A DNA stretch of 64,000 nt from Coriolopsis trogii (taxonomy: Eukaryota > Basidiomycota > Agaricomycetes > Polyporales > Polyporaceae). The translations under genes and the position numbers were made by a program. Where the stretch lies: the NCBI GenBank assembly GCA_020543525.1, contig JAHYIO010000008.1:930001-994000 (forward strand), in the 5' to 3' direction. The notes beneath the pieces were generated by a model, which was not told where the DNA came from, ran no database searches, and was given only the letters and a program-made list of their open reading frames with translations. How positions within the stretch are numbered: the first letter of the stretch is position 1; every line of letters starts with the position of its first letter. Positions 8,910 to 57,626 of the stretch are shown piece by piece.

Positions 8910-12851
<3,942 letters not shown>

Positions 12852-32883: not shown

Positions 32884-34491
32884 TTAAGATAATATAGTAA
32901 TGTGTAAGAATCCGTGCCATGTGAGAATGTAACAGAGCTGTGCATAGGAGGCGTGTGTCAAGGTCAGGGAGCGGCCGGAGACTTTTTGAAGCATAGGAGA
33001 GTAAGACTGGCGGCGAGAACACTTCGCGACCATTCTGGAAGACGCCTTCAGCTCTACTTCTGACAACACAAGTGGTAGGTGCTCACCCTTGACTCGCCGC
33101 CACCGCTTGACGGATCTTACCGACTCAGGCCCCCATACAGAAGCCGTGTAGTGCGATTCCTTGTCGTCTTCCTTCAGCTTTTCCTCGTACTGCTCACGAC
33201 GCCTCTCAAACTCTTTCGTGTACGCAGCGAACTCCGAGTCTTGGTACTCTTTCAATATCCTGGGAAACAGATGAGCGATCGCATCGCGGCCTCGAACCAA
33301 GTAGAGGGTGCCACGTACCGGGTGATAGCTTCGCACTTCTTCGCAAAGAGGAGAGGATCAGGCATGTCTTCCTGTGTCGTATGCGCCTGAAGGTCTAGAT
33401 ATGCGCTGACGACGGGGAGATGTGTAGACATGTCGAACTCCTCCAGACCGAGGTCGTAATGGTTGATGATATGGACATCGCCACTTCGCGGACCTCGTGG
33501 ACATAGGCTTGAATGAGTCGAGCCCCAGCCGCACCGTGGTCGAGACCCTGTCCTCGAGGATTGAGAGCTGGCGTCTTCCTCGAGGAGATCCGAGTTGTGA
33601 TGACAATTCATTGTAAGTGCATCGACTCGGACAGCACTGGACAATGAAGCTGCTGTTTTGGGAGGTGGCTCGGTGACCCTCAAGACGTCCGTGCTTCCCG
33701 GGTGGGTATATTGGCTGCACTTGCACGCGAGACCTTCATCACAGAGACTCGTAGCGGGATTTGGGGAAACAGCCTGAGGGAGGAGGATGGTAGGATTGGG
33801 AAGAGGTACTTCCGCCGGAGTTGGAAGGCCTGTGCCACAAGCTTCTTCGGGCGTACATGCAGATACGTCGGATCGGGGGCTACTCGCCCCTGCGCAGCGA
33901 GCCTCTATACGAGCCTGATCCTCTCGGTGGAATTCTCGCATGTTATACCATTCATCTGTCGATAGCTCGATGTACTCTCCTTCGACGGTGGTATAGCGAC
34001 CGGCTTTGACCCGGATCTGAATGGCCATGTCGTCTCCAAACCAGTGGTAGCAGTTGTCAAATGGGAAGCAAGGATCCGTGCGCACTGGAGCCCGTCCGTG
34101 TGGATGTTGGCTGGCGGGATAGATCGGGACACACATGTCGGGCGTGACGTTGTTGTCCGGGTCCTCTGGGCGGAGACCTGCTCCTACGAGAAAGACGTCA
34201 TAAGTGCTCGTCCTTTCGTCCTGACCGTCCATTTGACGACACTAATAGCATGAAGGGAACGAATGATCACAATTCGCGCAAACGACTTGAGCGTGAGAGG
34301 GAGCGTACCATGTCAAGAAACAACAGACATTTAGCTGTTCCGATTTCACGAACCTGTGACTGGACCTGAGCGTCCGCCACATGTGCTAGTGTTGCATCAA
34401 TGTCGATTTCCACTACGGCATATGTGCTCGGAAGTGGTATGAAAGCGGTCGTTGGGGACGGCGAGCGGCCGATGAATCGTGGCAATGCCAT
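32884..34491 (-). CDS. Family A protein A1, unknown function (partner of B1)
   Basis: Not recognised. Exons 34491-34309, 34241-33319 and 33259-32884 (last end uncertain) give about 493 residues. N-terminal block: Y-A-V-V-E-I-D-x-D-A-T-L, then K-C-L-L-F-L-D at the first intron. Core: C-V-P-I-Y-P-A-S-Q-H-P near codon 90 and F-P-F-D-N-C-Y-H-W-F-G-D-D-M. A Ser/Pro-rich low-complexity middle of about 170 residues is longer than in other members. Distal block: L-P-V-V-S-A-Y-L-D-L-Q to D-M-P-D-P, then a charged helical tail (E-F-E-R-R-R-E-Q-Y-E-E-K). No signal peptide or membrane helix. It is transcribed away from B1 across 496 bp; a TATATAAG-like box lies about 175 bp upstream of the start codon on its strand. 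Most divergent of the paired A copies. Confidence 0.7.
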
Positions 34492-34987
34492 GGCCGCACG
34501 CTGAGAGTGAGAGTGAGAAGTTGGGCGGGGATGTGAAGTGGGATCCTCTCGTGCAGAATCATTTGTGGTGATCCTATGTTCCGCAAAACAAAAGCTGGCC
34601 CTGCAATCGCTGCAATGTCGATGAGGAAGACAATAGAAGCTGTTGTTCAGAATTGGGTCGGTAGTTACATATAAGCGCTGGATGGCGCCGAGGGTCGGCC
34701 CGGGCGTCGGTGAGCGTTGTTTTTCCTTGTGCAACAACCTTCCTCGTACTACCGCGCGCATGTGCATCCCGAGAACACAACCTTCTGTCTCTAGATAAAG
34801 ACCATGTTACATCTTGGGTGCGGTATGGCCTGCTCTCTGAGCTCGGTTGCGTCATTGGTGCCAGAACTGTCCTATATACTCAGCATCTCAAGTGCACGAT
34901 CCAATCACACTGTGTATGCCCTCCTTCTTTCCTCATCGACATCGACAAGTCTACCGGTAGACATCGCTCACATTCTTTATTCGCACC

Positions 34988-36121
34988 ATGTCATACTCTC
35001 TGTCCTGTGCTCGTTGTATTCACCGCTCTCTGGTAGACCGTGATGGCACCCTCCAATTCTCCCCTAGTGACGACTCCGGAAACGTCTATGGCGTTTACGA
35101 ATCTCTCTCTACCGCTGTCTACCACTTGCTCAAGGAAAGCTACGGCATGCGTTATGATGCTGCCGAGTTTACTCGCTGCTTGGACGAATTCGACCGTGCG
35201 CGGAGCAAGCCCGACCACGACTTGAAGCTACGGCCTTGTGTCATCGTTCCGGCTACTGATCTGAACAATCAGAAGGTCTGGCCAGGGACACAAGCCATAT
35301 GTCTCGGTGCGACACTCGGACACGCATCATACGAGCAGCTTCCTACGCTCGCTCAGCACTTCTTCATACCAGTATACTCGAACCCGCGCTGTGCAGCTGT
35401 GCCGCACATGCATACGGTCCCTCAATGGGGCAATCCTCATCAGTGGATATTCGCCTACAAATGGGTTTGCGCACGAAATATGGACATCATGTGGAGAACC
35501 TCTTGCGACTCGACCTCCCTCGGCTCAGAAACTGACGTCTCTGCGTTGCCCTGCTACCAATTTGATAAGCGGAGCATGGCGCTGCTGGATAAAGAGTGTC
35601 GTAAAAGGTTGCAGGGGTGGAAAGCGCTATGTGCGCGGGATTCCACCTTTGCAGCTCGAGCTGCGGCTGACTACAGGGTGAGATTTCTCTACTCTCCTTT
35701 ACTTCGTTTTTATAACCATGGGCTTTCCTTAGGTCAAGCAAAAGAACGCTACCATGAATACTTTGGTGCGTATATCACCTAGTACTCACCTTCCAGTACC
35801 ACTAATTGGCCCTAACTCATGTTTATCTACAGGTTTCGCGATGCAGCACGCGCACCAAAGCGACTATCAAGACATCTCGGTCTATACGACCACTCGAGAT
35901 GCTGCCCGAGAACCCGGAGGACGGGCTCAGGTTCCCACAGAAGACCGGGATGGACTGTTCATCGTTGAAGAGCAGGGTACGTGTTTTGCCTGTCCTAAAG
36001 CTACATTCCGATCACTCAGATCACGCTCTCCACGCCGTTTCATCCTATCCCAGACGAAACATATGGATCGGAGGTCCTCCAAGTCCTCGATACATTCGTT
36101 CTGGCGTCGCACGCCTGCTAG
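34988..36121 (+). CDS. Family B protein B1, unknown function (partner of A1)
   Basis: Not recognised. Exons 34988-35677, 35733-35765, 35833-35976 and probably 36020-36121 (about 322 residues). If the last junction differs, an Arg/Ser-rich end at 36137 results. N-terminus has C-A-R-C (residues 7-10). Core: L-R-P-C-V-I-V-P, C-L-G-A-T-L, then F-F-I-P-V-Y-S-N, H-M-H-T-V-P-Q-W-G-N-P-H-Q-W-I. First exon ends in the A-D-Y-R block that precedes the first intron in three of four family members (B1, B2, B3). A TATA-like CTATATACT lies about 115 bp upstream. No membrane segments. It shares a bidirectional promoter region with A1, which suggests co-expression; any complex with A1 is inference. Confidence 0.68.
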
Positions 36122-36329
36122 CCCAACCGTGCGCTAGAGACAAGCACGTAGTGTACCATACTGCAGCCCCTTCTTGCTCTCAGATATCCCCCCGGGCCGT
36201 GCCCATAAAGGAAGAGGTGCAGCGGAGGGTTTGGACACTTCAGGGAAGGAATATGCACTGATATTCGTAGGGATACGGAATGATTTACAGCGGTGATACT
36301 TGTGGCTCGAGACAGGCTGGAGGGAAGAC

Positions 36330-37517
36330 CTAGAGATCATCCGTGCGCAACAGCTGAGAGGAACGCCTGCGGCGTGCTCGTAGGATGTCCATAGCACCTC
36401 CCAGAATGCGCTTCAGGCTATCAAAAAGCTTTCCCGTGACCAGGGATTGGTTCGGAAGTTGACGAGCAAGTGATGGAGAATCTTCCCCCGCGGCCACCAC
36501 TGGCTCGGGATTGCCTGTCTGCTCAGCAGCGGCTTGCCTTCGCTGCAGATCCCGGACAATTCTACGATGAATGAGTGAGCGAAAAGTCCGTATGCGATGT
36601 ATTTGCACGTACTGAGACAATGCGTTACACTCCTGGATGAACGCAACGGGGTCAGGGATGTCGTCGCCGCTCATATGCGCAGGAAGATCGAGCCAGAGGT
36701 CGACGATAGGCATAGCTTCTGTAGCCGCATCGTGGTCCCAGCCAAAGAAATTGTCAGGGAGGTCGGGGCCCACAGAGTCCCCTTCTTCGTTGTGCTTCAC
36801 AGACACACTTTGCCCGTCATCCGAGATATCCTCCCGATCGTCAGACATAGCCTTCGACTCAGCAGCCAGGGGGCGTATCCCAGGGGCTGGAGCAAGAGGT
36901 GTGACCTCAGGCGGGGCTCCAAACAGCTTGTATGACTCTGCGACACGGTGGTTGTCCTTTTGGTGGAAATTCTCCATTCGAACATATTGCAAGGACGGGA
37001 GGACGTAGACCCCCTGATTCCCGGGCTTCATGTACTCGCCCTTCTTGACCCGGACGTCGAGCTCCATGTCCTCCCCAAACCAGTGGTAGCAGTTCTGGAA
37101 CGGAAACTCTGGAGCAGTAAAGACCACGTTGGCACGGTCCGAGTCCGGGTGGCTCGTGTTGGGGAAGATAGGGATGCACATGTCCGCGGTGATGCGTAGT
37201 TCAGTGTTGGGAGGACGAAGCCCGACACCGACGATATAGAGAGAGTATTTGTACTCTGACTTCCTCGGGAGGGGCAGCTCGCGGACCTGACGAAGGATCA
37301 AACTGGTTAGCCTTGCCACGAACGTGTTCGTGACAATCGTATCTATTGTACATACGTTCTGAAGGAAGACAAGGCACTTGAGAGGCCGGAGCTTTTGTGC
37401 GGCAACCGATGCTTCTGCATCGATAGTAAGATCGCGCAAAGTGGCCTCGGTATCGAGTTGAGCCACTCCATATATCTTTGGCATCGGGAAGAACATCGTC
37501 GGTTTGGGGTCTGACAT
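36330..37517 (-). CDS. Family A protein A2, unknown function (partner of B2)
   Basis: Not recognised. Exons 37517-37356, 37286-36613, 36561-36330 give 355 residues. Both introns (69 and 51 nt) are multiples of three without stops, so an unspliced message would encode 395 residues. Blocks: Y-G-V-A-Q-L-D-T-E-A-T-L; K-C-L-V-F-L-Q-N; then after intron 1 Y-K-Y-S-L-Y-I-V-G-V-G-L-R-P; M-C-I-P-I-F-P-N-T-S-H-P; F-P-F-Q-N-C-Y-H-W-F-G-E-D-M. An acidic linker (D-D-R-E-D-I-S-D-D) leads to M-P-I-V-D-L-W-L-D-L-P, D-I-P-D-P and a basic tail ending R-A-R-R-R-R-S-S. Head-to-head with B2 across 338 bp; TATAAAA lies about 75 bp upstream on its strand. Closest relative is A4 (46104-47227). Confidence 0.8.
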   Translation of the reverse strand: MSDPKPTMFFPMPKIYGVAQLDTEATLRDLTIDAEASVAAQKLRPLKCLVFLQNVCTIDTIVTNTFVARLTSLILRQVRELPLPRKSEYKYSLYIVGVGLRPPNTELRITADMCIPIFPNTSHPDSDRANVVFTAPEFPFQNCYHWFGEDMELDVRVKKGEYMKPGNQGVYVLPSLQYVRMENFHQKDNHRVAESYKLFGAPPEVTPLAPAPGIRPLAAESKAMSDDREDISDDGQSVSVKHNEEGDSVGPDLPDNFFGWDHDAATEAMPIVDLWLDLPAHMSGDDIPDPVAFIQECNALSQYVQIHRIRTFRSLIHRRIVRDLQRRQAAAEQTGNPEPVVAAGEDSPSLARQLPNQSLVTGKLFDSLKRILGGAMDILRARRRRSSQLLRTDDL

Positions 37518-37855
37518 TGTGATAGCGAGGCGAGGGCAGATGGCTCAAGTTGAGAGTGATGATAGGGAGTCACGGAAAGCAGAGAGACGCGTTTTATATG
37601 TGGCCGACGCGGGAAAAGACTGCGGAGGACAATGGAGCTTTGGTAGCCGTGCCGTGCATGGTTGGACAAATTCTGTGGCGGGGAGTCCCGGCAGGCCACA
37701 GTGTGGCTCGCCGGTGACACATTCCCTTAGCTTTAGAGGTTACGACTTGAGGCGTCGTGATTATCTTTGTGTACGCCGAGCCACAACAATGTCACGCTGC
37801 GCGCAAGCTATATCATGAGCGAAGTTCGTCTACTCAGTCTACAGCCTCAGACAAC

Positions 37856-39053
37856 ATGCCCGGTCTTATCATCCCCAACTGTGAGGGTTGCACTAACTCG
37901 ACACCACCCGCTCAGGCACTTCCATCTACAGCATCACCTCCCAAGTACGAAGTTGGGCACGTTGCAACCATCTTCGAGAGTATCAGAACCCCCGTTGAGC
38001 ACCTCTTTCTCGACTTCCAAAGCTACCTCGACCCCAACTCCGCCCAAAGATGCAAGAATGCCCTGGACAGGATCACGGCTCCAGATTCCCTCGTAGGCAA
38101 GTATCGACCGTGCGTGTTAACATCACCGCTCGCAGCAAGGGAGAACGGTGTGGAGTGTATGCTCTTCGCTACCATGGACAATGCTCCGTTTGAAGATCTT
38201 CCCAGAGTCTACCGATGGTTCGTGGTCGGAGTCTATCCGAACACGAGCCACCCTTTGCCGCCTCATTTGCACACAGTCCCAGAATGGCGCAACCCCTATC
38301 AATGGGTGATGGCATATTCCTTCAAGAGCACTCGCTCCCTCGAGGGGCTGTGGCCGCGCGCGCGGGTTCTGGATTATGGTCCTAAAGGAGAGAAGATACT
38401 CACCCCACCGGCGGACGTCGTCGGAGAGCACCCGGTGTACAAATTGAGGGAAGACGACATGAGTCTTTTGCTTGAGCTTGCAGGAGAGAAGCTGATTGAA
38501 TGGGGTCAGAAGTGCGAGGAGAAAGAAGTGTTCGCAGCGGAGTGCGAAGAGGATTACCGGGTGAGAAACACAAGCCTCATCCACTTTTCGTGTTCTCTCA
38601 CCGATACGTCACTCAGCTTAAGAGACCTAGAGCGGGCTCGCGTTGGTCCTCGAGGGCATCTTTGGTAAGCGGCTTGGCAGCGCCGACCATTCTGAGGATT
38701 TCACTTACCCGAGTCGACACCGTTCAGAACACTTGCTGCAGCATGTCAACAATCCGCAGCACGGCGAGAAGCGTCCGTAGTATGGCCTCGGCGGCACCTT
38801 CTCTCGAGTCCGTTCCTCACAGTCCACTGCCCGGGGAGGAGAATGTCCCTCCCACTCCGACTCAGGCAGACTACGGAGGGTTTCAATCAGCATCGTCGAG
38901 TGCACAGGTCCGTGTCTCACTCACATTATCGCATCTATTCGAACTCACATCCGGATTTGTGCCGCGCATCGTCAGGTATCGTCCAAAAGCCGCAAGTCGA
39001 CAAAGCCTCTTGGCAGGAAGAAGTCAGCCTTTGCATGGAAGAAGAATATCTAG
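37856..39053 (+). CDS. Family B protein B2, unknown function (partner of A2)
   Basis: Not recognised. Exons 37856-38560, 38617-38664, 38728-38907, 38976-39053 give 336 residues, all introns phase 0. N-terminus contains C-E-G-C (residues 9-12). Core: Y-R-P-C-V-L-T-S, E-C-M-L-F-A-T-M, V-Y-P-N-T-S-H-P-L-P-P-H-L-H-T-V-P-E-W and Q-W-V-M-A-Y-S-F-K-S-T-R-S-L-E-G-L-W. The third exon (60 codons) has S-P-L-x-x-E-E-N-V-P-P-T-P-T, also found in B3. The last 26 codons form a Lys/Arg-rich tail that could bind nucleic acid, acidic lipid or act as a nuclear signal; this is inference. No signal peptide. A TATA-like GCTATATCA lies about 50 bp upstream. Confidence 0.8.
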
Positions 39054-39079
39054 GAGAGAATCGCTCTTCTCTTGTTGAT

Positions 39080-39165
39080 CCCCGCAGTAGCTGGCGATTC
39101 TGATTTCACAGACTTGCGATTGGACTTGCTTGTCTTGAACGTCAGCGGACGAAGCATATAAGCGA
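39080..39165 (-). pseudogene. Short remnant of a family A first exon
   Basis: On the minus strand a stretch reads Q-V-Q-S-Q-V-C-E-I-R-I-A, matching A1's first-exon Q-V-Q-S-Q-V-R-E-I-G-T-A. No further A exons follow. The rest of 39054-40110 shows no gene. Confidence 0.4.
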
Positions 39166-40049: not shown

Positions 40050-41940
40050 TTGAGCTCAGCGCGTCCCGTTGATCCCATCTGCAGCAGCCGCCATCAGTGT
40101 CCCACACTCCATGAACGATAACAAGTCACGTACGCGGTTCGCACCCATGCCGAAGCGGTACGCCGCCCTCCGAATGAACCCTGTGGCGACTGTGGCGCAC
40201 TTCAACTACCCGGAAGTGACTGCAGCAGCAGAGAGCATGTCACCAAAGACTTACCTGGTCTACATCGAAGAGGCGAGTAGCAGTTGTATACCAACGGCTG
40301 AGTCTCCACCCGTGCTCGACTGGCGCTGACAATCCAGGTGTCCGATCACCTTCTAGGACATGCCTCTCCCTTTTCCAGACGACCCATGGTTCCCTCGGTA
40401 CGTGAGCGGAGTGGCTCCTTGCATGCCATCCTATGAAGAAGACGAGGGCGCCACAACAGACATGTGCATACCTATTTTCTCGAACACGAATCATCCGACG
40501 AACCGGCCTCCAATCCACTCTACGCCCGAATTCCCGTTCTCAAACTGCTACCACTGGAGCTGGCCGGATAACGTGAGGGTCCGCGTCTTAGCACGGCCGG
40601 AGGGGTGGGCGGAGGACGCAGCACATTGCCTATTGATCCCGACTTGTTTGAAATTGTGGCGGACTACAGCGCAGGACCAGACAAGGGCGCTGCGCAATAT
40701 TGAGAGTCGGAAGAGTTGAAAGGACGTGGCACCAGCGCTGATGTCCGCTGCTCAAGACGGTGAGACGACGATCTCCCCTCCTGAGTTGAAGACAACGCAG
40801 TCACGTGCTATGCGCCGTGAGGCGGTGGTTGGCACGGCACCATCCGATGAGATTGTGCTTCCCGAAGACCCCCCCCCCCCGCGGATGAGGGTAACGACCT
40901 TGGTGATGTCCCGGACGACACATTTTGGACCCCTGTAGCTCCTAATGGCGAGACGCGAGCGGATTGCTGGAAGAGCACAAGGCGCTTCTGTACCGTCGCC
41001 GGAAGCTTCACAGAGCTTGACACTGACCTCTATACACTATAGTTTGGTACGCGCTGCTCAAGCACGGCGCGAGGAGGAGGAAATCATCCTGCACGAGCAA
41101 AATCTGACGAGCTCTAGCTTCTTATATGAAGCCGGCTGTGAATATGATGGAGACGTACCGAGCTGCTTCCGTTACAAGAGTTCGTACATTGTCATTTCTT
41201 GGCCATTGCACACGTTGATGGGAGAGGTCGTCGACAGGTATCCATGTGGGATCCACCATCAGAGGGCTGCGAAGAGGTGTCCACAGCGCTGTGGCGAGGA
41301 TGGCTCGATTCTTCAAAGTCCTATACATTCCGATTTGGCCATAGACCTGATTGTACTAATGTATGCGCTCCTTTCCGGACAAAGCTTGTACCATGAGCAC
41401 ATGCAGATGGCGTTGATATTGGATGACACTCACGAGATGCGATGCCTCCGCCGAACATGAGGTTGTCCGCAAAGCTTGTAAGACACAGCACACCAGCGGA
41501 CATGTGTGCTACCGCTTCAAGATATCACTACTGGTTGCTGCTGACCTTGCTATCGCGGCCTTGCGACGTGTGTGATACTCACGTCGGTGTGGCGAGGGAT
41601 TCAAGACGAGTGTCGGATGGTGACGCACATGTAAGCCTCCGATCTCACTGGGCCGCGCTCACCTACACATAACAATAGCTTCAAATAGCGTACCTCTATA
41701 TCAGGACGTTGCCTGCCTCGCGACCTGTCGTTCTCCTCCCCTAAACCTCTCCCAGCTTATCCTAATATGTGCTCACCTCTCGCGATGTCCCTAACACACA
41801 TGTCTCACATCATTTTACCTCGGATAATCTCAGGTGGCCTTGACCTTGTCTTTCATGCCATCATATGTGGTGACGTGGTGACAGTGCTCGACATTTCGTT
41901 GAGAAGTAGGCAGTGGTGGTGGTAGAGAGTCAGAAGGCGA
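40050..41940. repeat. Left arm of inverted segmental duplication (with 51460-53450)
   Basis: From upstream of psi-A3 to past its 3' end this DNA matches, in opposite orientation, the A6 locus. Examples are the blocks near 41100-41460 and 51857-52240, and the noncoding GTGACGTGGTG and GTAGAGAGTCAGAAGG-like stretches near 41870-41940. Similarity is high in exons and lower in flanks. Limits are estimated by eye. Confidence 0.7.
40111..41458 (+). pseudogene. Family A pseudogene psi-A3 (copy of A6)
   Basis: First exon 40111-40272 (54 codons, R-Y-A-A-L-R-M-N-P-V-A-T-V) and second exon from 40357 are nearly the same as A6, including C-I-P-I-F and F-P-F-S-N-C-Y-H-W-S-W. The frame stops at 40717-40719 (TGA where A6 has Arg). 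After about 40740 the frame resumes but the S-M-D-V-P-D to D-L-W-Y-E-L region is largely deleted. The last-exon homology returns at about 41043-41458 (A-A-Q-A-R-R-E-E-E-E). The first intron begins GC, as in A6 and A7. It has no B partner next to it and is probably non-functional. Confidence 0.8.
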
Positions 41941-43826: not shown

Positions 43827-44502
43827 CCGAGACGGAGAGCGCGTATTCAGGTGCGTACTCGCAGAGCATGTGCTCGCCACGCGGGTCGCCCTCGCTGTAC
43901 GACGACTCGCCTCAGTACACGGCAACGGCGGAAGACGATGCAGGAGCAGGCCCGGACCCGGGCGTCGGGCAGAGAGGGAGCAAGGGTACAGTCCCGGGCA
44001 TCAGCCGTGGGCGGCGCAGGTTGAGCGCGTACAGTGGGCGGAGGATGGATGCGCACCCGGCACAGGACTCGGGTGCTGGAGACGCAGAGTATCTAGGGGA
44101 CGCAAGCGGGGACGCTAATGGAATGCGTACCCCTATACTCGTGCGCACATCCATTCCAGCATCCACGTCCGCTGCCTCATTCGCAGTCGCAGTCACAGCT
44201 CCCGCTGCCTTCCCATGTACACCAGCGTCATCCCCTTACCCAGTCGCACTCTAGTCCCCAGTTGATCCCTCTTGCGTCGTCGAGCCAGGGCATCCCCACG
44301 CCTCCGCACGACCACGCTCCCTCTATCGTCTCCGTCTCTGCCGCAGGCCATGTTGTGTTACGTTCGAAATTGCGAATACATGAAGGTAAGTCCTAGATAT
44401 AGACTTCACTATGTGTATCCAAATCTTATATGAGTCGTAGTTCAGGTAATCGGACAAGAGTAGAGCCTGGGGATGGATGTCACTATCATCGTACGCGAGT
44501 CG

Positions 44503-45621
44503 TCAGTGTGCACTTGTCGGTAAAACCTGGTCAAACAGAGGGACGCCTCCCTGTGATGCCACGATATGGATGTGAACATGAGCACAATGTTTGTTATCAC
44601 ATATGCAATGAAAAACTCACTTGCATGGCCGATGCCTCCGGGGGATAGTCATTTCGCCTCAGGGGAGTTGGCGTGGGTGGCACGTTCTCCTCTTCCTCTA
44701 AAGGACTGAGAGGGACGGACACCGAGACCACCGATGTCGATGAGGTGCAGCTGCGTATACTAATCGTATCGCTATCCGTGGCGCCGCTATAATGCGAAGT
44801 CTGGTTATGATATCAGGTCAGTAACGTCTCACCGGAAGGGAACACATGCTGACTCACAATTGAGGACCTGCGAGAACTCGCGCAGGATTTCAAGGCATTG
44901 AAGCGACTGCGCTGTTGGAGTGTTCAGACAAGCTGACCTCCGATGCCGACGTCGAAGAGAGAGGACTCACCCGGTAGTCACTTTCGAGCGACGCTATAGC
45001 CGGTGCGTTTTCTGAGCATTCTTGAGACCACTTGCTGAGCCGCTCCACCGCAATCTCACGCAACGACTGCATGGCATCGTCCCTCATCTTGAAGACCTGT
45101 CGAGAAGAACCGCTGGAGCTGCGGGCCTTTCTTCTGTCGCCGACCCACAGTCCTAGGAGGGGACGCGTGCTCTTGAATGCATATGCCATCACCCACTGGG
45201 AATCGTTCTCCCACTCCGGTACGGTGTGCAAAGGTTGGGGGAGTCCTTCATGGCCCTTGTTTGGGGATATCGCAACCAGAAATCGCTGATAGACTTCAGG
45301 AAGGGAGTCGTACGGTGTTCCACTCAATGTACCCATCAACATACACTCGAAGTCGTTGCCGGTCCGTTTGACTTTCCCTGCCGAAGTGAGGATACAGGGG
45401 CGACGCTTGCCAACGGGGGAATTAGGTGCGTTAATCTTGCGGAGAGCGTGCTGGCATCTTCGCTGCAAGTCGGCACACTGTGGGTCTTCGACTTGGGAGA
45501 ATAGCAGTTCCACAGGGGTCGAGAGGGTCTCAAAACTCGTGGAGATATGTCCCATCCTATAGCGAGGAAGAGCTGTCGTAGTCGAGAGGCCCGGGGGGCG
45601 CCGTCGGGGTTGAGTGCGCAT
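44503..45621 (-). CDS. Family B protein B3, unknown function (partner of A4)
   Basis: Not recognised. Exons 45621-44971, 44911-44858 and 44800-44621 are firm; a short last exon ending near 44503 is a guess. Core: R-R-P-C-I-L-T-S, F-E-C-M-L-M-G-T-L, then A-I-S-P-N-K-G-H, P-L-H-T-V-P-E-W and Q-W-V-M-A-Y-A-F-K-S-T-R-P-L-L-G-L-W. Exon 3 is 60 codons, as in B2, and holds S-P-L-E-E-E-E-N-V-P-P-T-P-T. The N-terminal CxxC of other B proteins is missing with this start. It is divergent to A4 across 482 bp. The pair B3/A4 mirrors B2/A2 in inverted order, so the unit probably duplicated whole. Confidence 0.72.
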
Positions 45622-46103
45622 CGGACTCTGGTGACAGGAGTCAGGTCGACGGACGGGAACACTGTGGGTAATGACCTAGGGGTGATATATCCTTCGACTC
45701 TAACCAAGGCCAGTGTTCGCAAATTCGGAAGCCACGTGCCTTGAAGGGAAGCCACAACGCAGCTCGACCATCTTGTCAAAGGCACAGGGCGGTCATCTCT
45801 CTAGTTGTTGCCGGGGGCCACAATTGGTTGTCGCGTCATGGCCCAGCCTCCACGCGACGCGGGCACAACCAAACAGAGTCATCCCCATCATCCGATCGTT
45901 GGTCGTTCGTTGTCACACGCTTGACGAATTCCTTTGTCAAGAAACGTTCGGGTGAGTTCTGCTCAGTCATCCTTTGTGCTTGTGGACACAAAGAGCCAAA
46001 CACTACAAGATTATCTGCATCTCCTGCTCCTCCACTCCTCCACCGTTCACCTCCTTCGTTTATATACAAATCCCTGAACTCCTACGGCTCGCTTTCGACC
46101 ACT

Positions 46104-47227
46104 ATGTTGTTCTTTCCTCTCCCTAACTGGTATGGTGTGGCTCAGCTCGACATAGAGGCCACGCTGAGAGATCTCCATCCCGATGTCGAAGCCCTCTCTG
46201 CTGCGCAGAACCTTCGGCCTCTCAAATGTGTCGTCTTCCTGCAGAATGTACGTCTAGTCATACGATGGCTTGTCCATGGCGCATATTTTGGAAGGCTAAC
46301 CTGGATTGTGTTGTCTCCTAGGTTCGCGAACTCCCCTTGCCCAGGAAATCCGACTACAAGTACACCGTCTACGTCGTTGGTCCCGGCCTTCGTCCTGAAA
46401 ATTTAGAGCTGCAGATACCAGCCGATATGTGCATCCCGATCTTTCCCGCCACCTACCATCCCGACGGTGATAGGACCCCACTGACCGCCGTTCCAACATT
46501 CCCCTTCCCAAATTGTTACCACTGGTTTGGGGATGACGCGTCAATTGACGTTCGGATCAAGAAAGGTGTATATGATACCCCGGATGGTCATGTAACCTAC
46601 GCGCTTCCATCAGGCGAGTACGTCCGGATGGAGGTGATCCAGTCGAATGATATCAACAAGGTATGGGACGCAAGCCAGCTCGTGGATTCCGCCGAGGACG
46701 ATATCGAAGAGTCATCGGAGCCCGGCGATGCCGAGTGTCTCTGTGACGACGTCGACGAGGATTCGGATGATGGGCGCAGCGTGTCGGTGTATTCGGAGGA
46801 TGAGGAGATGACCGAGGAGCCTCCCTCCGATATTCTCGGATGGGATTACGATCCAGAGCGAGATGCTGTGCCCGTTGTCGACTTCTGGTTAGATCTTCCT
46901 GCTCATGTTGAAGGCCACGACATTCCGGACCCGATGGCGTTCATCCAAGAATGCAATCGCCTCTCGCAGTACGTTTTCATAGTGGATTGGCATTCGAGCG
47001 AACGCCCTGCTGACGAGCAAAATCAACACAGGATAGTGAGAGACCTGAAGCAAAGGCAATTGACGGCTGAGCATGAAGCACTCCCCGTTCCCGCCGTGAA
47101 TGTTCCAGACAGCCCTGAGACCGAACAGCAGCCTAGAAGACCCCGGGGCTCTGCAATTGTCGCTGAGTTGACTCGCATCGTCGGACGAGTGAAAGGTGTG
47201 GTATTCCAGCTCATCCAGATCTTGTAG
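46104..47227 (+). CDS. Family A protein A4, unknown function (partner of B3)
   Basis: Not recognised. Exons 46104-46247, 46322-46968 and 47032-47227 give 328 residues. It follows A2 block for block: Y-G-V-A-Q-L-D-I-E-A-T-L, K-C-V-V-F-L-Q-N (intron), V-R-E-L-P-L-P-R-K-S, M-C-I-P-I-F-P-A-T-Y-H-P and F-P-F-P-N-C-Y-H-W-F-G-D-D. A strongly acidic middle (E-D-D-I-E-E, D-D-V-D-E-D) follows, then V-P-V-V-D-F-W-L-D-L-P, D-I-P-D-P and I-V-R-D-L-K-Q-R-Q. The second intron (63 nt) is stop-free and a multiple of three. A TTTATATAC box lies about 40 bp before the ATG. No signal peptide or membrane helix. Confidence 0.8.
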
Positions 47228-47467
47228 GGCACTCACGTTCATGCGACCGTCAGGCTTTGCCTGTACCCTCTTCAAGCCCAGAAAGTGATGCGTCCTTCTC
47301 AATCCTTTCAACACTGAGTGTAGCTAGGAATCCCCACGTTGTTTGTATCCTTCAGCTTGAGATAATTCATACTGTCCTACTCGAACACACTCTTTTACCG
47401 TCCATATTCAATCAATTCACATAGGTCTTTGAGCAGGATACTGCGGTCCGCACCCTACCTTGTCTCA

Positions 47468-47640
47468 ACAAGGCAGTCGCAGTACAAATACACCGTATAT
47501 GATATAAATCGTGCGAACCGGCTTGTGTCCTCCCAACATAGAGAGATATCCCACAATGTGCATGTGCGCCCCCGTCCTCCCGAACACGAACCCAGTGCGA
47601 CTCACACGGCAACTCTCGTCCAGGGAGGTGGGATGGCCGT
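47468..47640 (+). pseudogene. Decayed family A fragment
   Basis: Readable as Q-Y-K-Y-T-V-Y-D followed, in another frame, by R-T-G-L-C-P-P-N, T-M-C-M-C-A-P-V-L-P-N-T-N-P. This matches the A4 region Y-K-Y-T-V-Y to C-I-P-I-F-P with a frameshift. It lies 240 bp after A4 in the same direction, a tandem remnant. The rest of 47228-47941 shows no gene. Confidence 0.6.
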
Positions 47641-47941
47641 TAGTCGCTGAGTTACTCACCTATAATACTTGCTTGATGGCCTTCGTGTTCTCTCCTAATC
47701 CCTCGTATCCGGTGTATATATCTCATGCATGGTGGATGCGAGACGTTGCACTTGTTCATTAAGAGACCACGTAGCCGCGTATCGGAAGCCTCCAACTCTG
47801 GCTGATGCTCAAGCTCCCTATTTACAACAAACGAAGCCGACAGGGGGGTCGCCGGGCTACCGACCTCATTCCTGGTTAGTTCTGTGCACAGCAGAGTTCT
47901 GATGGATCGCAGAGCGCACCTATGAACAAATCATTGCTGTT

Positions 47942-49015
47942 TCAAGTACAATCCGGGGTGGATTGAGATATGCTCAAGTCATGATGCACGTTCCAGGAAG
48001 AGACTCCCTTCCACTTTCCTCTCATCTGCGTCTCCATGCCGCTGATATTTTGTACGAGTGTGATGGTGAAAGGCACCTCGAGCGTCCCGTGGGTGACGGT
48101 GGACATTGCGTGTACGGTCTGATGCGGGGCAGCCTTGACAGGGATGCTTGTGGTGTAGGTCTTGGCAAATGACTCCTCGGGACCCAAGTGCCAGGTTCTC
48201 GTGGTAGAGTCGTCGGACGTCCCAATTTTACCCTTGCAGACAAACGGGATAGTGGCTTAATAGCCACAGTACTTCAGAGCACAGCCGGTCAAAAGGCGAG
48301 TGAGCACGTACATTGGATTTCACTGTTAACAGCGAGCTTGATTCCATTTGAGTACTCGAACTTGGATGTGTGCCTTACGCTCTCGTTGAGATTGTACAAC
48401 ATCTCCTGCACGTGGTTGGTGTTGTTCGTAAACGACTGTTCCGCTAGTGTGACCAAGCCGCTCGCGAGTATCCTGCCCGAGGCGACGTCGTACTCAATCC
48501 TCTTCACTACGATATCGTTGAATGCAAACGCAAAAAACTGATCTCCATATACCTCCTCCGCGGGATGGTTGCAGACGTAAGGGTCGCGGTGGGTGCGCGA
48601 GACCCAGACCTTTCGAGTCGCAGGACACAATATACGGAACTTGCCCGCTCTACTGCCCGACCCTCTCTCAAACTGAAACCAGCTGATTGAAGCCACACAT
48701 TTTGGTGTTAGCCATGGTTTATCGTTAGATTGATTCTAGAATCACATACTTGTCATTGTACTTCCCATCTCCGCCAATATGGCCGATACGAGGGTTCGGG
48801 CTGTTGCGAGAGAATAGAACATTGCCACTCGCTTTGCCCTTGATAGCGTAGGTCCCTTGTCGAGAGCCTTTGCCGTGGATAAGCGAAAACAGCTGATCAT
48901 CGTACTTTGGTCCTTGGAAGTGCCCCACTTCTGGGTGCGGCCCTTTCCGCGAGTACAAGACGTACCCCTTCGTATCGACGAGTCGAAAATAAAGACCAGG
49001 AGGAGGAATGTACAT
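47942..49015 (-). CDS. LSL-type pore-forming lectin L1 (beta-trefoil plus aerolysin module)
   Basis: Exons 49015-48750, 48682-48312 and 48255-47942 give 316 residues, almost exactly the length of the Laetiporus sulphureus lectin. The N-terminal half is a beta-trefoil sugar-binding domain with repeated G-x-Y-A-I-x-G-K-A-S-G-x-V-L-F-S-R type segments and ends near W-V-S-R-T-H. The C-terminal half is a Ser/Thr-rich aerolysin-like module (from D-Q-F-F-A-F-A-F to W-K-G-V-S-S-W). The founding protein is haemolytic; here the natural target (nematodes, insects, microbes) is unknown. No signal peptide, as expected for cytosolic mushroom lectins. Exon 2 is 371 nt, the same as in L3. No break is seen. 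Confidence 0.86.
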
Positions 49016-49714
49016 CTCTCTGGAGAGGAGAGTAATGCGAGTAGGGCCTGTGTAGACTCAAGATAGATGATCGAGGAGCGACAGCTGGCCTCGTGTCACT
49101 TGCTCCGTGGATGTGGTACACGATAGAGATGCGGCGTACCTCGTCTTGTGCCCATGCGTGCGAAGCAGACAGCCACGATCAGGCCATGCGATAACCCACG
49201 TAAGATTGTCAGCTGGCCAGCATAGAGTTACCGAGCAAGTTCCGCCTGTACTGAAAGGAAGCGGGCCTTCGCGAAGTACGCGTACGACGTCCCGGCTTGC
49301 CATACTAGCTAAACAGTTAAGGGACCTCAGCAAAGTATTCCGCAGATGCCTTCTGCCAGAGCCTTCGAGTTACATAGATAGATATGGTTTGAAGACATCA
49401 TGAGACAAGCCGGTTGGTGGAGGGAATGCACGTCTTCAGACTGATTTGTGCCCACTGAGAAAGCGCTCAATCAAGTCCCCGGACCGAGGGGACCGTTCAG
49501 GCAAGCCCTAGCGTTTACCGGCTCGTCTTGACTATCTCACAGATATATGTATAGTTAACGATGTCTGAGCTCAACTTCGCCTGGAGTGTATTGTAACTGG
49601 TCGTGCGAGAAATTCGATGTATTGGATACTACAAAGAATCATCCGTATCGACAGATTAGAGCGTGTGCAGTTTCAACGCGACGCAGATGTCTCCACGCGA
49701 CCAAGAGAAGTCGA

Positions 49715-50733
49715 TACCATAGCGCAAGATCTAGGTGGAGACACCCTTGCATGTTCCCGTCACCTGCGTCTCCGCGCCGCTCCCGTTCCGAACGAGCGTG
49801 GCAGTGAGGCACTTCGAGCGTCCCGCGCTACACGGTGGCTACTGGCCACTGCCTGCACGCTCTGGCCTGGCGGGACCTTGTCGGTGTACGTCTTGGCAAA
49901 CGCCTCCTCGGAACCGAAGGGCCAGGTCGTGGTGTCAGACCCATCGACGGTGGGTTTGCCTCCGCTGACAAACGGAAGGCCCGCTGGTGTATGAAGAGGC
50001 CATCAGTACAAGTGTCAGGTCTTCGTAGCCAGTCTGGAAACAAGCGAGCAGTAGGCACGTACTCTTGACTTCAGTTGCAGTAGCGAGCTGGACCCCGTTA
50101 TAGGACTCGAACGTGGACGTCTGCGTCACACTTGCGGCGAAGCTGAACGGCAGCTCCTGCACCTTGTCGGCGGTATTCTTCAGCGTCTGGTCCGAGAGCA
50201 TGAACATGCTGCTCTCGACGATCTCGCCCGAGGTGACGTCGTACTCGATCTTCTTCACAACGATGTCGTCCAAGGCGAACGTGAAGAACTGGTGTCTAAA
50301 CACATCCTTTGCTGGATGGTTCCATAGTCGTCATGACGCAAGACCCAGACCGACTGGTTCGCGAGACATAAGATACGGAACTTGCCCGCGTATGTGCCCG
50401 ACCCTTCTGGGATGGAACCAATTATGAGATACGCAAATCATGATTAGCAATTTGGAGGGCAAACATATAGACGTGATCACGTACCTGTCGTCGTCCTTCC
50501 CGTCACCTTCGATGTGACCGACAAGGGGGTCCGAGTTGTTGCGAGAGAAAAGGACTTTAGCGCGTGCCCTTGCGAGAGCCTGAGCCATAGATAAGCAAGA
50601 ACAGTTGGTCCTCGTACTTTGGTCCTTTGAAGTGCCACATCTCCGGGTCCTCCCCATATCCGTTGCGCGAGTATAGAACATACTCGTTCAGGTCGACGAG
50701 GCGGAAGTATAAACCGGTCGGAGGAATACACAT
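49715..50733 (-). pseudogene. Pore-forming lectin pseudogene psi-L2
   Basis: Starts at 50733 with a first exon very close to L4 at 63799. A deletion of about 28 bp after the K-G-T codons (near 50560) shifts the frame and gives an immediate stop. The second exon (about 50420-50050) has at least two further frameshifts. The last exon (about 49983-49715) has frame loss and a stop in place of the W of the conserved final motif. It lies directly upstream of L1 in the same orientation, but its nearest relative is L4. It cannot make a full lectin. Confidence 0.85.
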
Positions 50734-51459
50734 GTCGTTTATTGCGCTGAATTGAGGTGGTGAAGTCTCTCGTCCAAGGTTGCACGAGCCGGACCTTCGA
50801 CCCGACCCATGCCTTCAGGTAACGAGGCCGACGTCGGATGTCGTTCTCCAGTTTACCAACCTGAGGTCCGATGAGAAGAAAGTAGTCTTGGTGGCTGTCA
50901 CAACGCTTACAGACAGGAGACCTTTGAGGCACGCCGGCTATCTGTGCTCTATCCAGTCCTGAGGGCCATCGCGATAGGTACCCCAATCTGTTGACCTGTA
51001 TTCGGATCAGCATACACAAAGCGAGCACCAAGGTGAAAGCTGCTACCGAGAACACACGGGGACAATGTACACGCAGTTCGTCCCCCTCCACTCCTCCATA
51101 CTGCGTCCCGCTATCGGATTCATGGACTTGGGCACGACCTGCCAATATGAACGGGGAACGGACGGGTACGAGACCAGGTCGCCGTCTGGCCATAGTGCTG
51201 TAAGTCGGTCGATGGAGGTTCAACCTCCATAGTACGCTGCAGAGGCATGGGTCCACAATTTGTGTTGAGACAGCTTAGCAGAACGAAAACTTTGAGTCCA
51301 TAGGATCGATTAGAGTCTCGGTCTACAAGATGGTAGACCGTCTCAGGAAGAGAACGATTAGGGGCGCTAACAGCCTTCAATATACTCGCGAGAACCGGGG
51401 CGGGCGTGCCGTACAGCCCCAGGTCCGGCAACAGACAGCAACCCGTTTCATGCTCCCTT
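50734..51459. other. psi-L2 upstream region, similar to the L4 promoter
   Basis: On the minus strand, about 50760-51060 aligns by eye with 63120-63380 upstream of L4. Shared pieces include GACGTCGGCCTCGTTACCTG and the ACTACTTTCTTC start. No coding frame supported. Confidence 0.6.
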
Positions 51460-53450
51460 CTGACTCTACCACCCACACCAGACCCACACTGCCTGCTTTT
51501 CAGTAAAACGTCGAGCTCATGCACCACGTCACCAGATAGGACGGTATCAAGACTCCACCAGATAATATCCGGTATTTTCACGTGATGGGCACGGGCGGAG
51601 ACAGGTTCAGAGGATATTGCGAGGGGCGGGAATTTGTTGCAATGAACTGGGAGAGTGGAAAGGGACGGAGATTGACAGGTCGAAATGCACGCAACATAAT
51701 CATATAGAGGTACGCTATATGAAGCTGTCGATATATGTAGGTGAGCGCGGCCCCGCAAGAATGGAGGGTCACATGTGCGCCATCATCCGACACTTGTCTT
51801 AAAACCCTTGCCACCGACATGAGCATCACAACATAAGGTCAGCAACATTCAGTCTCTCAGCGGTGGTACACCTGTCGCCCGGCGTGAAGAAACAACCTGT
51901 ATGTTCGGCGGAGGCATCGCATCTCGTGAGTATCATCCACTATTACCGCCATCTGCATGTGCTCTTGGTTGAAGCTTTGTTCGGAAAGGAGCGCATACAT
52001 AAGCACAATCAGGTCTATGGCCAAATCGGAACGTATAGGACTCTGAAGAATCGAGCCATCCTCGCCACAGCGCTGTGGACACCTCTTCGCAGCCCTCTCA
52101 TGGTCGACCCCGCTTGGATTCCTATCGACGACCTTTCCCATCAATGTGTGCAACGGCCAAGATATGACAATGTACCAACTCTTGCAACGGAAGCAGCTCG
52201 GTACGTCTCCATCATATTCACAGCCGGCTTCATATAAGAAGCTAGAGCTCCTCAGATTTTGCTCGTGCAGGATGATTTCCTCCTCCTCGCGCCGTGCTTG
52301 AGCAGCGCGTACCAAACTGTAGTATATAGAGGTCAGTGCCAAGCTCTGTGAAGCTTCCGGCGACGGTACACTCACTCTTGAAGCGCCTTGTGCTCCTCGA
52401 GCAATCCGCTCGGGTCAGGGATGCTGTCTTCCTTGAGGTAGTCCGTGAGCTCATACCAGAGGTCGGCCATTGGGAGAACCTCAAGCTGCCTCGCCGAACT
52501 CTTGCGCATGTCGTCGACGATTGCGTCGATGAGAGAATCATCGATCGAGGCGGGATGTGAACCTTTGTCACCCTCTGGAGCCCTAGGAGGCCATGCGGTG
52601 TCATCTGGGACATCCATGGAGTCGTTGTCCTCATCAGCTGCTCCGGTGCCGTGCACTATCACATCGTTGTGTGGTGTCGTGCCGACCTCTGCATCAGGGC
52701 GCATAGCAGGTGAGCCCGATGTCGTCGACTCGGGATGGGAGCTCAACGTCGTCTCACCTTCTTGGGCGGACCCCAGCACTGGTGCCACGTCCTTCCGGCT
52801 CTTCCGACACTCAAGGTTCCGCAGCGCCCTCGTCTGATCCTGCGCGATAGTGTCCCACATGTCAAAACAAGACTCGATCGACAAGCGATGTGCTGCGTCC
52901 TCCGCCCATCCATCCGGTCTTGCCAAGACGCGGACCCTTGCTTTATCCAGCCAGCTCCAGTGATAGCAGTTCGAGAACGGAAACTCGGGTGTGGAGTGGA
53001 TAGGAGGCCGATTTGTTGGATGTATGGTGTTTGGGAAGATGGGGATGCACATGTCCGCCGTGGCACCCTCGTCCTCATCGTAGGATGGCATAGATGAAGC
53101 CACTCCTCGAACATATCGAGGGAACCACGGATCTTTCGGCCAAGGGAGAGGCATGTCCTATATGGTGTGCGGACACCTGGATTGTCAGTGCTAACCGAGT
53201 GTGGCGGAAACTCGGACGTCGTTGCGGGGCTACTACTCGCCTCTTCGATGTAAACCAGGTAAGTCTTCGGCGACATGCTCTCTGCTGCTGCAGTCAAGTC
53301 CGGGTAGTTGAAGTGCGCCACAGTCGCCACAGGGTTCATCCGGAGGGCGGCATACCGCTTCGGCATGGGTGCGTATCGTGCGTGTGACTTACTATCGTTC
53401 ATGAGATACTGATCACAGCGGCTGCAGTATAGAAGGACGGGACGGATTGG
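51460..53450. repeat. Right arm of inverted segmental duplication (with 40050-41940)
   Basis: Carries A6 in minus orientation and matches the psi-A3 locus in reverse. Boundaries are estimated by eye. Confidence 0.7.
51857..53402 (-). CDS. Family A protein A6, unknown function (no B partner)
   Basis: Not recognised. Exons 53402-53241, 53157-52376, 52316-51857 give up to 467 residues. Intron 1 begins GC instead of GT (GAG|GCGAG) and ends TAG; no usable GT donor is nearby. Blocks: R-Y-A-A-L-R-M-N-P-V-A-T-V, S-P-K-T-Y-L-V-Y-I-E-E, P-W-F-P-R-Y-V-R-G-V, M-C-I-P-I-F-P-N-T-I-H-P, F-P-F-S-N-C-Y-H-W-S-W. Later come D-M-R-K-S-S-A-R-Q, L-P-M-A-D-L-W-Y-E-L-T, D-S-I-P-D-P and the tail A-A-Q-A-R-R-E-E-E-E. 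The last ~100 codons are unlike A7 and may be read-through into noncoding DNA. No B gene lies upstream; the orphan state is shared with its duplicate psi-A3. Confidence 0.72.
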
Positions 53451-54059
53451 CTCACGGTCAGAGTGAAAGACAGTGCGAGATGAGCTCAGAGGTTGCATCA
53501 TTATTGTACGCCATATTATTTGCAGTTGTTACGATCTGTAGGTGCCACAAACAATAGAGCTACTACCTGTGTCTCCTCGACAACCGTTCAGAACCTGAGG
53601 TCATCGCGTCATAAGGATTACTCTTCGAATGCATGGTGCCAAAGCCTAACAGTTCCTACGAAACCTCAGGGCTACGGCCACACGGGAATGTAGGGAAGAC
53701 GAAAACGCCATCGTAGACGGAGGACCAGTCGTCGAACTCTCACGCAGAGCTCCCAACGGATAACGCGTATGCGAGAAGCTAGTGCGTATACGGCGAGTGT
53801 AAGGTAGTGCGTCATGCCACCAAATTGCGGAGTACTTTCAGTGTTCACCTAGTATACGTCTCATACAATAGGACGAAGTCTTGCACTCCACCGGTGTTGG
53901 TGCAATTGACTCACTTATACTCGTGTACGATCCTATCCTTGAAGGACCCTCCATAATAAGCCGTTGGTTCTGTGCAGAGAGTACTAGTCTGTCACAGAAT
54001 TATCGTTGACGGACTGGGTCAGTAGGCATATAGATGTCACTCGCCTTCTCAGAGTATTG

Positions 54060-54185
54060 CATTCGTTTATGTATCGAACGGACTGGGGATCTCGTCTTCC
54101 TTGATGTTGGCTTCTAGCTGGTACAAGAGGTCGGTCATAGGTAGGTCCTCTTCTTCGTCTTTGTCTGGCCCCAACATATGCTCCA
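54060..54185 (-). pseudogene. Family A distal-block fragment
   Basis: Minus strand reads L-P-M-T-D-L-L-Y-Q-L-E-A-N-I-K-E-D-E-I-P-S-P, clearly the block seen as L-P-M-V-D-L-W-Y-E-L-T in A7, preceded by acidic residues. No other A exons are found around it, and 53403-54654 is otherwise without a gene. Confidence 0.65.
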
Positions 54186-54654
54186 TGCCACCGAGTCACT
54201 GAACATTACTCACCTCAGCCTGTGGCAGAGTCTGTCATATTATCGTGGCACGGTGTGGATGATGCCTGTTCAATTTGGTCCAAAACGAGGTAGAGTCCCA
54301 TATATGATGAGTACTGTATGAGACAGTGCGGAAGAGGACGAATGAAACTGCCAGTCGCAACTGGTAAGTCAAGTCCGACTCTCAGCGTCTAGCTGAGTAC
54401 CAAGAAAGCGCCGTAGATTGCACCGCTCCGCCGCGGCCCTGCAGTGCCTCCTCCTCCTACCTACAACGTCTACCATCCCGCTCAGCCCTCCATCCATGCC
54501 CCTGAGTCACGGCCAGAACGGAATATAAGGAACTCGTAGCACATTCTGTATACGATCCGACATTGCCCTCAAGCCCGCCCGCACTCGCACCGCGACATCT
54601 GAACTTGCACAATCTGGCAACAATCAGCCTGAGTTCTCATCATCGGACATGACT

Positions 54655-55881
54655 TCATGTACTACACCAAGACTCACAAAAGCATAACAAACACATTGGT
54701 ACGTCATATTCATCTTCACGCCCGCTGTAGAACTCGAAGCTAGAGCTCCTCCTCGCAAGTTCGTGCTGGACGATCTCGTCCTCTTCGCGCCGCGCTTGCG
54801 CAATATACACCAGGCTGGGGCAGATGAAGAATCATATCAGTATCAAAGTAGATGATCCCCAGACGAACGGTACGCTCACTCTTGAAGCTGCTTGTACTCT
54901 TCTATCAGTCCGTTAGGATCTGGGATGCTGTCTTCCTTCAGGTACTCCGTGAGTTCATACCAGAGGTCAACCATAGGGAGGAGCTCGTGTTGTCTCGCCG
55001 TTCTCTTGCGCATGTCGTCCATGATTGCATCGACGAGAGACTCGTCAATGGAGGCGGGATGCGAAGTCCTGCTTCCTCCAGAGGCCCAGCTAGTGTTATC
55101 GGGGACGTCTGTGGAGTCTTCGCGTCCCTCGCATACGGCGGGATCTTGGGGGAGAACATCGATGAGTGCCGTCGAGCGTGCCTCAGAGGCCTCATGATCT
55201 TGAGACCCCACTTCTGTGCTGGCCAGCTCTGCGGATAGCATGTCTTTCTCCATGTTCACAATAGTTGCCTCCGCTGCTGCCGTGACTACCTCCGGTTTTG
55301 TTCTCAGTTTGCGATTCTGAACCCCTTGAGCCCGATCCTCTGAGATGATATTCCACAAGCGCATGCACTGATTGACTGATAGGCGATATGCGGAGTCCTC
55401 CGCCCATCCCTCTGGCCTTGCCATCACGCGTACTCTGACCTTGTCGAGCCAAGACCAATGGTAGCAGTTCGAGAACGGGAACTGGGGTGCGGTATGGACG
55501 GGAGCCCTGTCCGTTGGGTGGGCCGTGTTAGGAAAGATGGGGATACACATATCCGCGGTTGCACCTTCGTCTTCATTGTATGACGGCATACAGGCTCCCA
55601 GGCCCGAAACGTAGCGAGGGTAGTATGGGTTGTCTGGCCACGGGAGAGGCATGACCTGTGCCGTCGCATCAGTACTGTCCGGAACTCGGTCAATATGAAC
55701 ATCGCGTCGATGTGCTCGCCTCCTCGATGTAGACCAGGTATGTCCTCGGTGACATGCTCTCCGCTTTTGCAGTTAATTCTGGGTAGTTGAAGTGCCCCAC
55801 AGTTGCGATGGGATTCATGCGCAGGGCACCATACCGTTTCGGCATAGGCGCAAACCGCGTACGAGGCTTGCTATCATCCAT
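54655..55881 (-). CDS. Family A protein A7, unknown function (partner of B4)
   Basis: Not recognised. Exons 55881-55720, 55655-54880 and 54814-54655 give 365 residues. First intron has a GC donor (GAG|GCGAG), as in A6. Blocks: R-Y-G-A-L-R-M-N-P-I-A-T-V, Y-L-V-Y-I-E-E, P-R-Y-V-S-G-L-G-A-C-M-P-S, M-C-I-P-I-F-P-N-T-A-H-P and F-P-F-S-N-C-Y-H-W-S-W-L-D. Then a variable linker, D-D-M-R-K-R-T-A-R-Q, L-P-M-V-D-L-W-Y-E-L-T-E-Y-L-K-E-D-S-I-P-D-P and I-A-Q-A-R-R-E-E-D-E. The end (M-C-L-L-C-F-C) is Cys-rich. Head-to-head with B4 across 413 bp. No membrane or secretion signal. The first exon is 54 codons, identical in length to A2 and A6. Confidence 0.8.
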
Positions 55882-56294
55882 GATCGAGTTCAACGCTGCC
55901 GGAGAGTTCAGGTTGTTGGAAGATAACTTGATGTCAAGGGGAGAGCGTGTATAGCACGGAGTCGCAGGAGGTGGGTGGGTCAGCCTATGCCTGTGAAGCC
56001 CCCTCATTATCTCACGTTGTTTGCAGCTATTGTTGTCAGTGGGCGTCGTGCGCCTCGCCGGTACGGATGCTTCACATGCATGTGGTCGTAGCTATGTACA
56101 TGGGCGATGGTTACGTCGTCTGCTGGTGAGTTATTCACGTTATGGGACTGTCAGGGACGTTCGGGCGGCGAGATTTGCCACAGGGTCAGGGGAACAGACC
56201 TTCCTGTATCGAGCTCGTAATCCAGTCCTGCCAGATACAAAGCTGAGCTTTGATACATCCTCCCCCTTTTTGTCCTCCGTCTCGTTCTACCATC

Positions 56295-57626
56295 ATGTCT
56301 TGCGTCAACTGTTGTGCTCCTGACGTCCCTCCAACCATCACCTTGCCCCGCCTAACGGAAGGTCAAGTACGAGGCTCTTATGATTCTATCTACGCTGCCC
56401 TCGTGCATGTTCTGTCGTTGGGGACTAACATAGAGCTAAACACGCCCGTGGCCACCTCTGACACACAATCTGAGGCCAGTAGCATCAGTTCAAGAGTTTC
56501 CAACGGTCGACGCTCTACCGCGCGCCCCTGCATTATCATCCAGCACGACGCCAAGACGAACTCCGCCCGTGGGTTCCTCATGACTCACTACGGTACTACG
56601 CCGATAGGCGCAATGCCTGAAGTCTTCCGGCATTTCAGCGTCAGCGTGTTCCCCACCAATAATCCACTCAGCACTCGACCTGGTGGCCCGAACCACATTC
56701 ACTCGTTGCCAGACTGGGATCACGCTGGACAGTGGATTATTGCATGCCCCTTCGAATCTACCAGACTGGACATCAACCACGTGTGGACCATGGCAGGAAG
56801 AGAGGTACTATTCGGGGTCAGAGCCATGTCCGAGCTCCTGCAGTTCGCCGAGGAACGCGCAGATCAGTGGATGGATTACATCATGACCAACCCGACCTTT
56901 CTCGCTAAGCAGAAACGAGCTGTAGAGGTATGTGGTGCACAGCGTACACGAACCCCAGCGAGCGGAATGCTGACAACTGTGCTAGGATCACATCCGCCAG
57001 TTTGAGGCAGGCCCAAGAGTGAGGACGCTTCTATACTCTGCTACCCTTTCCCGCTCTCTCAGCATTGCCCTTCAGGCTTACAGAGCATCTTCTCACCGCT
57101 CCGGACCTTCCGGACGCCTGTCCCAACAATGGAAGGACGGTCGGAACAGCCTAGCGGCACAGCCAATACCCGAAGAAGAGATGCTGGCTAGCGTTCCCGA
57201 TGAAGCCTGGAGGACGGTAAGGAGGGCGGACGTGAGGCAACGACTATGCTGATACGAGTACTCTGCAGGTTGGAGCACAACGCAAGGCGCGTCGGTCAAC
57301 CACTGGCAGCCGCACCAGTACGACGTATGGCACCAAGCCGCACACGAAGTCGTCCCATGGATCTCGTACATCCATCGGGTCCATCATAGCCCTCGACGGT
57401 AGATCTTCTGGAACGGTGAGTATTCGTCTCACCTAAATCAGTCTTCGTGGCAGGACTTATATTTTGCCATTAGAATGTCAGTACACCGGATCGTATGGAT
57501 GGTCGCTCGACAGGTGCACCTCCTGCAGCTCCTCGGTTGAGTCTGAAGAAGCGACTTAGCATGGGCATGCACGCTATCGACCGTAGTGTCGTTCCTGTCA
57601 GGAAGAGCTCGAAGAACAGTGAATGA
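56295..57626 (+). CDS. Family B protein B4, unknown function (partner of A7)
   Basis: Not recognised. Exons 56295-56927, 56986-57216, 57269-57415, 57474-57626 give 387 residues, all introns phase 0. N-terminus M-S-C-V-N-C-C. Core: A-R-P-C-I-I-I-Q, then F-S-V-S-V-F-P-T, H-I-H-S-L-P-D-W-D-H-A-G-Q-W-I-I-A and F-E-S-T-R. The C-terminal third is Ser/Thr/Arg-rich (S-R-T-S-T-T, S-H-G-S-R-T-S) and ends in a basic tail (L-S-L-K-K-R-L-S, V-R-K-S-S-K). The E-E-N-V-P-P-T-P-T block of B2/B3 is absent. Divergent from A7, with which it forms a second lineage of A/B pairs. No signal peptide or membrane helix. Confidence 0.78.

Follow-up and report, generated by a model that had tools for sequence, protein, structure and literature searches.

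Divergently Paired A and B Genes of Coriolopsis trogii as a Possible Fungal Family with a MazF-type Fold

In the type II toxin–antitoxin system MazEF, the Escherichia coli toxin MazF uses its Arg29 and Thr52 residues, while MazE is a small DNA-binding antitoxin. MazF-type toxins are, to our knowledge, described from prokaryotes. In basidiomycetes, the HD1/HD2 mating-type genes form a variable, multi-pair locus with a head-to-head layout. A 2008 survey reported that no eukaryotic sequence satisfied all of its toxin–antitoxin criteria and that there were only looser matches to ParE and Doc (PMC2446400). Here we describe two groups of genes, A and B, in a 64,000-nucleotide stretch of the Coriolopsis trogii genome (the window; positions 930001-994000 of contig C8, in an assembly of 38.8 Mb and 39 contigs). 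Our reading, to which we give a probability of about 0.42, is that A and B belong to a fungal family with a MazF-type fold, in which B is an effector and A its related antidote, encoded in divergent, partner-locked pairs.

The A/B genes resemble MazEF and PemIK in being a two-gene arrangement in which B never occurs without A in this genome. In contrast to these systems, A and B are transcribed divergently rather than as an operon, and the presumed antidote A is probably kin to the effector rather than to MazE. The likeness to the MazF/PemK/Kid (PF02452), CcdB, and ToxN/CptN/AbiQ proteins lies in the fold match of A and, more tentatively, in a Gly-x-(I/V) strand, an Arg-Pro, and a following Thr in B. 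Unlike members of that superfamily, A and B are eukaryotic and intron-containing, most models have about 280–400 aa, there is no Pfam-level similarity, and both carry a fungal stretch (PxxPNxxHP...TxPx(F/W)...W), with an N-terminal CxxC in nine of ten B proteins. The genes share the head-to-head, variable, multi-pair arrangement of HD1/HD2, but have no homeodomain.

Pairing and co-divergence of the A and B genes

Exon models were predicted from sequence alone, and their 3' ends are the least certain part. Start codons were placed by hand at the first Met ahead of the conserved N-terminus; starts set by script only differed for several genes, for example B1, Ba, Bf, Bg, Bh, A7, and A13. The window contains four divergent pairs. 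A1 (clade I; 33054-34491, minus strand), known from its gene model and a match within its own genome and uncertain at its 3' end, faces B1 (34988-36121, plus strand; hand-set start), which has the motifs CxxC, RP, and HMHTVPQW, across 496 bp between start codons (34492-34987). A2 (clade II; 36330-37517, minus strand), which has in-frame introns and was spliced by hand because the script model was wrong, lies 338 bp (37518-37855) from B2 (37856-39103, plus strand), a protein with 69% identity to the public protein P0003. B3 (44393-45621, minus strand), whose model lacks the CxxC, and A4 (46104-47227, plus strand) are 482 bp apart (45622-46103), and A7 (clade III; 54482-55881, minus strand) and B4 (56295-57626, plus strand) 413 bp (55882-56294). 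A sequence-only reading made earlier had claimed these four pairs and these gaps, which our models reproduced with hand-set starts, and its statement that each B gene of the window is divergently paired with an A gene was borne out (4/4).

The pairing extends beyond the window. Whole-genome searches with B2, Bh, and B1 returned the identical nine B loci, all on C8 at 912.6–1062.9 kb; one extra match on C3 (E 0.25) was not counted, and the search scores the best candidates only, such that very diverged B genes could escape. All nine B starts face an A start on the opposite strand 235–632 bp away; besides the window pairs, the start-to-start gaps are 492 bp for Ba/Aa, 632 bp for B5/A9, 371 bp for Bf/A13, 513 bp for Bg/A14, and 235 bp for Bh/A16. 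The chance of such an A placement for a randomly placed and oriented B start is 0.032, although the nine pairs are not independent tests, because they were duplicated as units. The pairing itself is a near certainty.

The A genes are distributed differently. A queries revealed 15 gene-sized copies on C8, in addition to fragments, together with nine loci on other contigs (three on C39, two each on C38 and C5, and one each on C25 and C6), and the three B queries gave no B match at any of the latter. Six C8 copies (Ab, A3, A6, A8, A12, and A15) have no B partner, and five of these lie 3' of a paired A gene in the same orientation (Aa-Ab, A13-A12, A14-A15, A7-A6, and A9-A8). In the window, the partnerless copies are A3 (40114-40938, plus strand), with a broken reading frame, A6 (51857-53399, minus strand), and A8 (61332-62303, minus strand), which lies beyond the range of the earlier reading (32884-57626). 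A5 (47366-47650, plus strand) is a short, uncertain A-like stretch seen by eye in translation and unmatched in the A genome searches. Some partnerless copies may not be intact: the A3 frame is interrupted, A12 seemingly lacks the C-terminal motif, and several copies off C8 are fragments. Within this one genome, the pairing is thus one-sided, with A frequently on its own and B never. Among public proteins, we found two A homologues (P0001, and P0002 from Daedaleopsis nitida) and one B homologue (P0003).

Protein distances among nine A and nine B correlate (r 0.806; 1/20,000 permutations), and the trees partly mirror each other. The grouping (Aa,Ab)-(A1,A9) matches Ba-(B1,B5), and A16-(A14,A15) matches Bg-Bh. 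A2, A13, and A4 (with A12) cluster, as do B2, Bf, and B3 (with P0003), but the B side is unresolved and the long-branched B4 falls into it; the tree tool warned that the long branches of Bg and B4 meet. On the A tree, six changes are required by the label “paired”, and it is no more strongly clustered than in shuffles, 113 of 500 of which needed as few, indicating that unpaired A copies arose at several places. The ratio of nonsynonymous to synonymous divergence (dN/dS) was 0.12–0.35 wherever dS was finite, which held for ten of the 12 copy pairs compared; dS was saturated in A1/A9 and B2/B3, and among the ten it was above 1 in six and below 1 in four, all of them A (A14/A15, A39b/A39c, A4/A12, and A3/A6). 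As dN/dS is below 1, A and B look like constrained protein genes and not chance frames. The paired module proposed from the sequence is supported by the nine of nine paired B genes, the correlated distances, and dN/dS, also outside the window, but the pairing is not mutual.

The remark that TATA-like boxes flank several gaps proved weak, since TATAWW lies in the 150 bp ahead of the B start in two of nine gaps and in those ahead of the A start in two of nine. No 7-, 8-, or 9-mer was common to more of the nine gaps than in shuffled sequence.

Relatedness of A and B and the MazF-type fold

A and B share the stretch P(I/V)xPNxxHP...TxPx(F/W)...W. Comparison of the A and B core profiles gave P 7e-5 and an HHalign probability of 63%, and none of 300 column-shuffled decoys scored as high (none of 199 in an earlier version). 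The profiles left out the models A5b, A6c, A25, A38a, and A38b and, initially, A8 and A9, which were later added by hand; A38a was added in the tree, and the A core profile left out A39a and kept 20 rows. The earlier reading described A and B as two families; the core-profile match suggests that they are probably two branches of one superfamily.

The fold model of A matches the MazF/PemK/Kid, CcdB, and ToxN/CptN/AbiQ toxin superfamily over residues 4–161, and we consider it quite probable from this model that A has a MazF-type fold. The structure model of B2 (predicted local distance difference test score, pLDDT, 54) had no fold match; a weak profile match of B points towards the MazF/PemK superfamily, and B would have the same type of fold. 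The statement that no nuclease motif is visible may thus be wrong in substance, since both matches lead to a ribonuclease (RNase) toxin superfamily.

MazF-sth lost most of its activity when Arg29 or Thr52, which correspond to Arg25 and Thr48 of MazF-bs, was mutated (PMC10893535). An Arg-Pro is found ahead of a strand in all ten B proteins, namely those of the nine genes plus P0003, and eight of them have a Thr in the strand that follows it; this Thr is one alignment column off, on Thr53 of MazF. The Gly-x-(I/V) strand is conserved in B. Among 21 curated A proteins, five (A2, A4, A12, A13, and P0001) have Arg-Pro before the corresponding strand, the residue alignment of A with MazF being unsure. 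The motif HxH(T/S)xPxW is present in nine of ten B proteins, and a zinc site formed in B would be a guess from such motifs. A proteins have a conserved C-terminal element, PxVDxWLDLxxHLxxDxIPDP, and the P0002 model has low pLDDT at residues 187–241 ahead of it. By eye, we also saw the motif E-x-EN(V/I)xPTPT in the tails of clade II B models (B2, B3, and Bf) and KxSHxTASV in those of clade I A models (A1, A9, Aa, and Ab).

Library searches and neighbouring elements

Pfam was searched with nine proteins of the window and afterwards with the members of the A and B alignments, NCBIfam with two proteins, PHROGs with ten B, PADLOC with four proteins, and PDB sequences with A2 and the A and B profiles; for A or B, nothing emerged beyond weak single-member matches. 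The best library match, an HNH-endonuclease phrog found with one of ten B proteins (E 0.018), was set aside, the Cys/His order being judged unfitting. A mating-type locus was likewise rejected: the only Homeobox_KN (PF05920) match lies at C20:1964386, and C4 carries every one of the 18 STE3 matches, leaving C8 with none. The Pfam results for A or B included no homeobox match. Searches of an open-licence library brought up no paper on MazF- or PemK-like proteins of fungi or on such gene pairs.

Within the A/B array, positions 47942-50814 (minus strand) hold pieces of a beta-trefoil/aerolysin-like haemolytic lectin, from two copies lying side by side; the piece at 48725-49057 matches Boletus edulis lectin, with a best E of 2e-33, as well as LSLa of Laetiporus, and that at 49935-50330 matches LSLa further along the lectin (E 4e-19). 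Upstream of the array, 8784-14466 and 17461-20965 (plus strand) contain P-type ATPase pieces, a piece resembling acyl-CoA:6-aminopenicillanic acid acyltransferase, and a RhoGEF gene. At 174-5027 (plus strand), the window has a long copia-type retrotransposon frame (1617 aa) in which gag, integrase, and RVT_2 domains occur. The A proteins predicted at C38:14.0k and C39:13.4k are identical; C38 is only 32.6 kb long, and the two are possibly duplicated contig ends or haplotypes.

A candidate mechanism and its alternatives

We propose a single fungal family, built on the MazF/PemK (CcdB/ToxN) toxin fold, of which A and B would be the two branches. B, to which the effector role is assigned because of its residues, would bind or, as an RNase, cleave RNA. 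A would be a relative that is catalytically degenerate and that binds the B of its own pair, restraining it either in a mixed dimer or by means of the strand-helix element conserved at the C-terminus of A, which could serve as a neutralising arm. Divergent transcription out of one short gap, possibly from a shared promoter, would hold antidote and effector together, and therefore a lone B would not be tolerated, while a spare A would be harmless. The observed asymmetry agrees with an effector that a genome cannot carry unless the antidote is also there. A more specific version, with a single MazF-fold ancestor, B as a sequence-specific RNase, A as its dead twin and antidote, and multiplication into co-evolving, mutually specific divergent pairs, is tentative and on balance rather unlikely.

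Several results weigh against parts of the effector–antidote reading. PF02452 had no match at E up to 10 in a six-frame search of the genome and is absent among the Pfam hits of A or B. An initial, more narrowly trimmed A/B comparison reached P 0.009, and whole alignments gave 0.98; HMMER alone found no significant A–B match, and the matched stretch is short (29 columns), so that common descent is likely, not proven. The catalytic residues are aligned by weak profiles only, and unit duplication accounts for much of the pairing. The last two points would suit an RNA-binding or scaffold pair without enzyme activity, paired merely since a tandem array duplicates as units; we hold this to be unlikely, as unit duplication alone does not explain lone A at many places and lone B at none. 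The same asymmetry is not predicted by a self/non-self recognition module like HD1/HD2, in which related, co-diverging partners form active mixed dimers only across pairs or alleles. The gene layout, the many diverged pairs, and the correlated A/B distances agree with such a module, yet A and B lack a homeodomain and the mating-type markers lie on other contigs, making it improbable.

A spore killer, in which B kills meiotic products without a linked A, would account for the tight linkage, for B never being alone, and for repeated duplication towards the contig end (the B genes lie about 73–224 kb from the end of C8); however, the pairs appear to have been kept for a long time, given that dN/dS is below 1 and that they are deeply diverged, and we regard this selfish element as very doubtful. 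An RNase-type defence directed at mycoviruses or retroelements, in which A would be the regulator and infection would release it, draws on the MazF-type fold match, the expanded and variable family, and the copia element in the window. It has a low probability in our estimate, since nothing ties the A/B genes to infection and PADLOC had no match to the four scanned proteins.

If the effector–antidote reading is true, the A/B genes would be a chromosomal, intron-bearing, multiplied, and partner-locked fungal version of a MazF-type system, and would add a new branch to the eukaryotic systems that target RNA or tell self from non-self.
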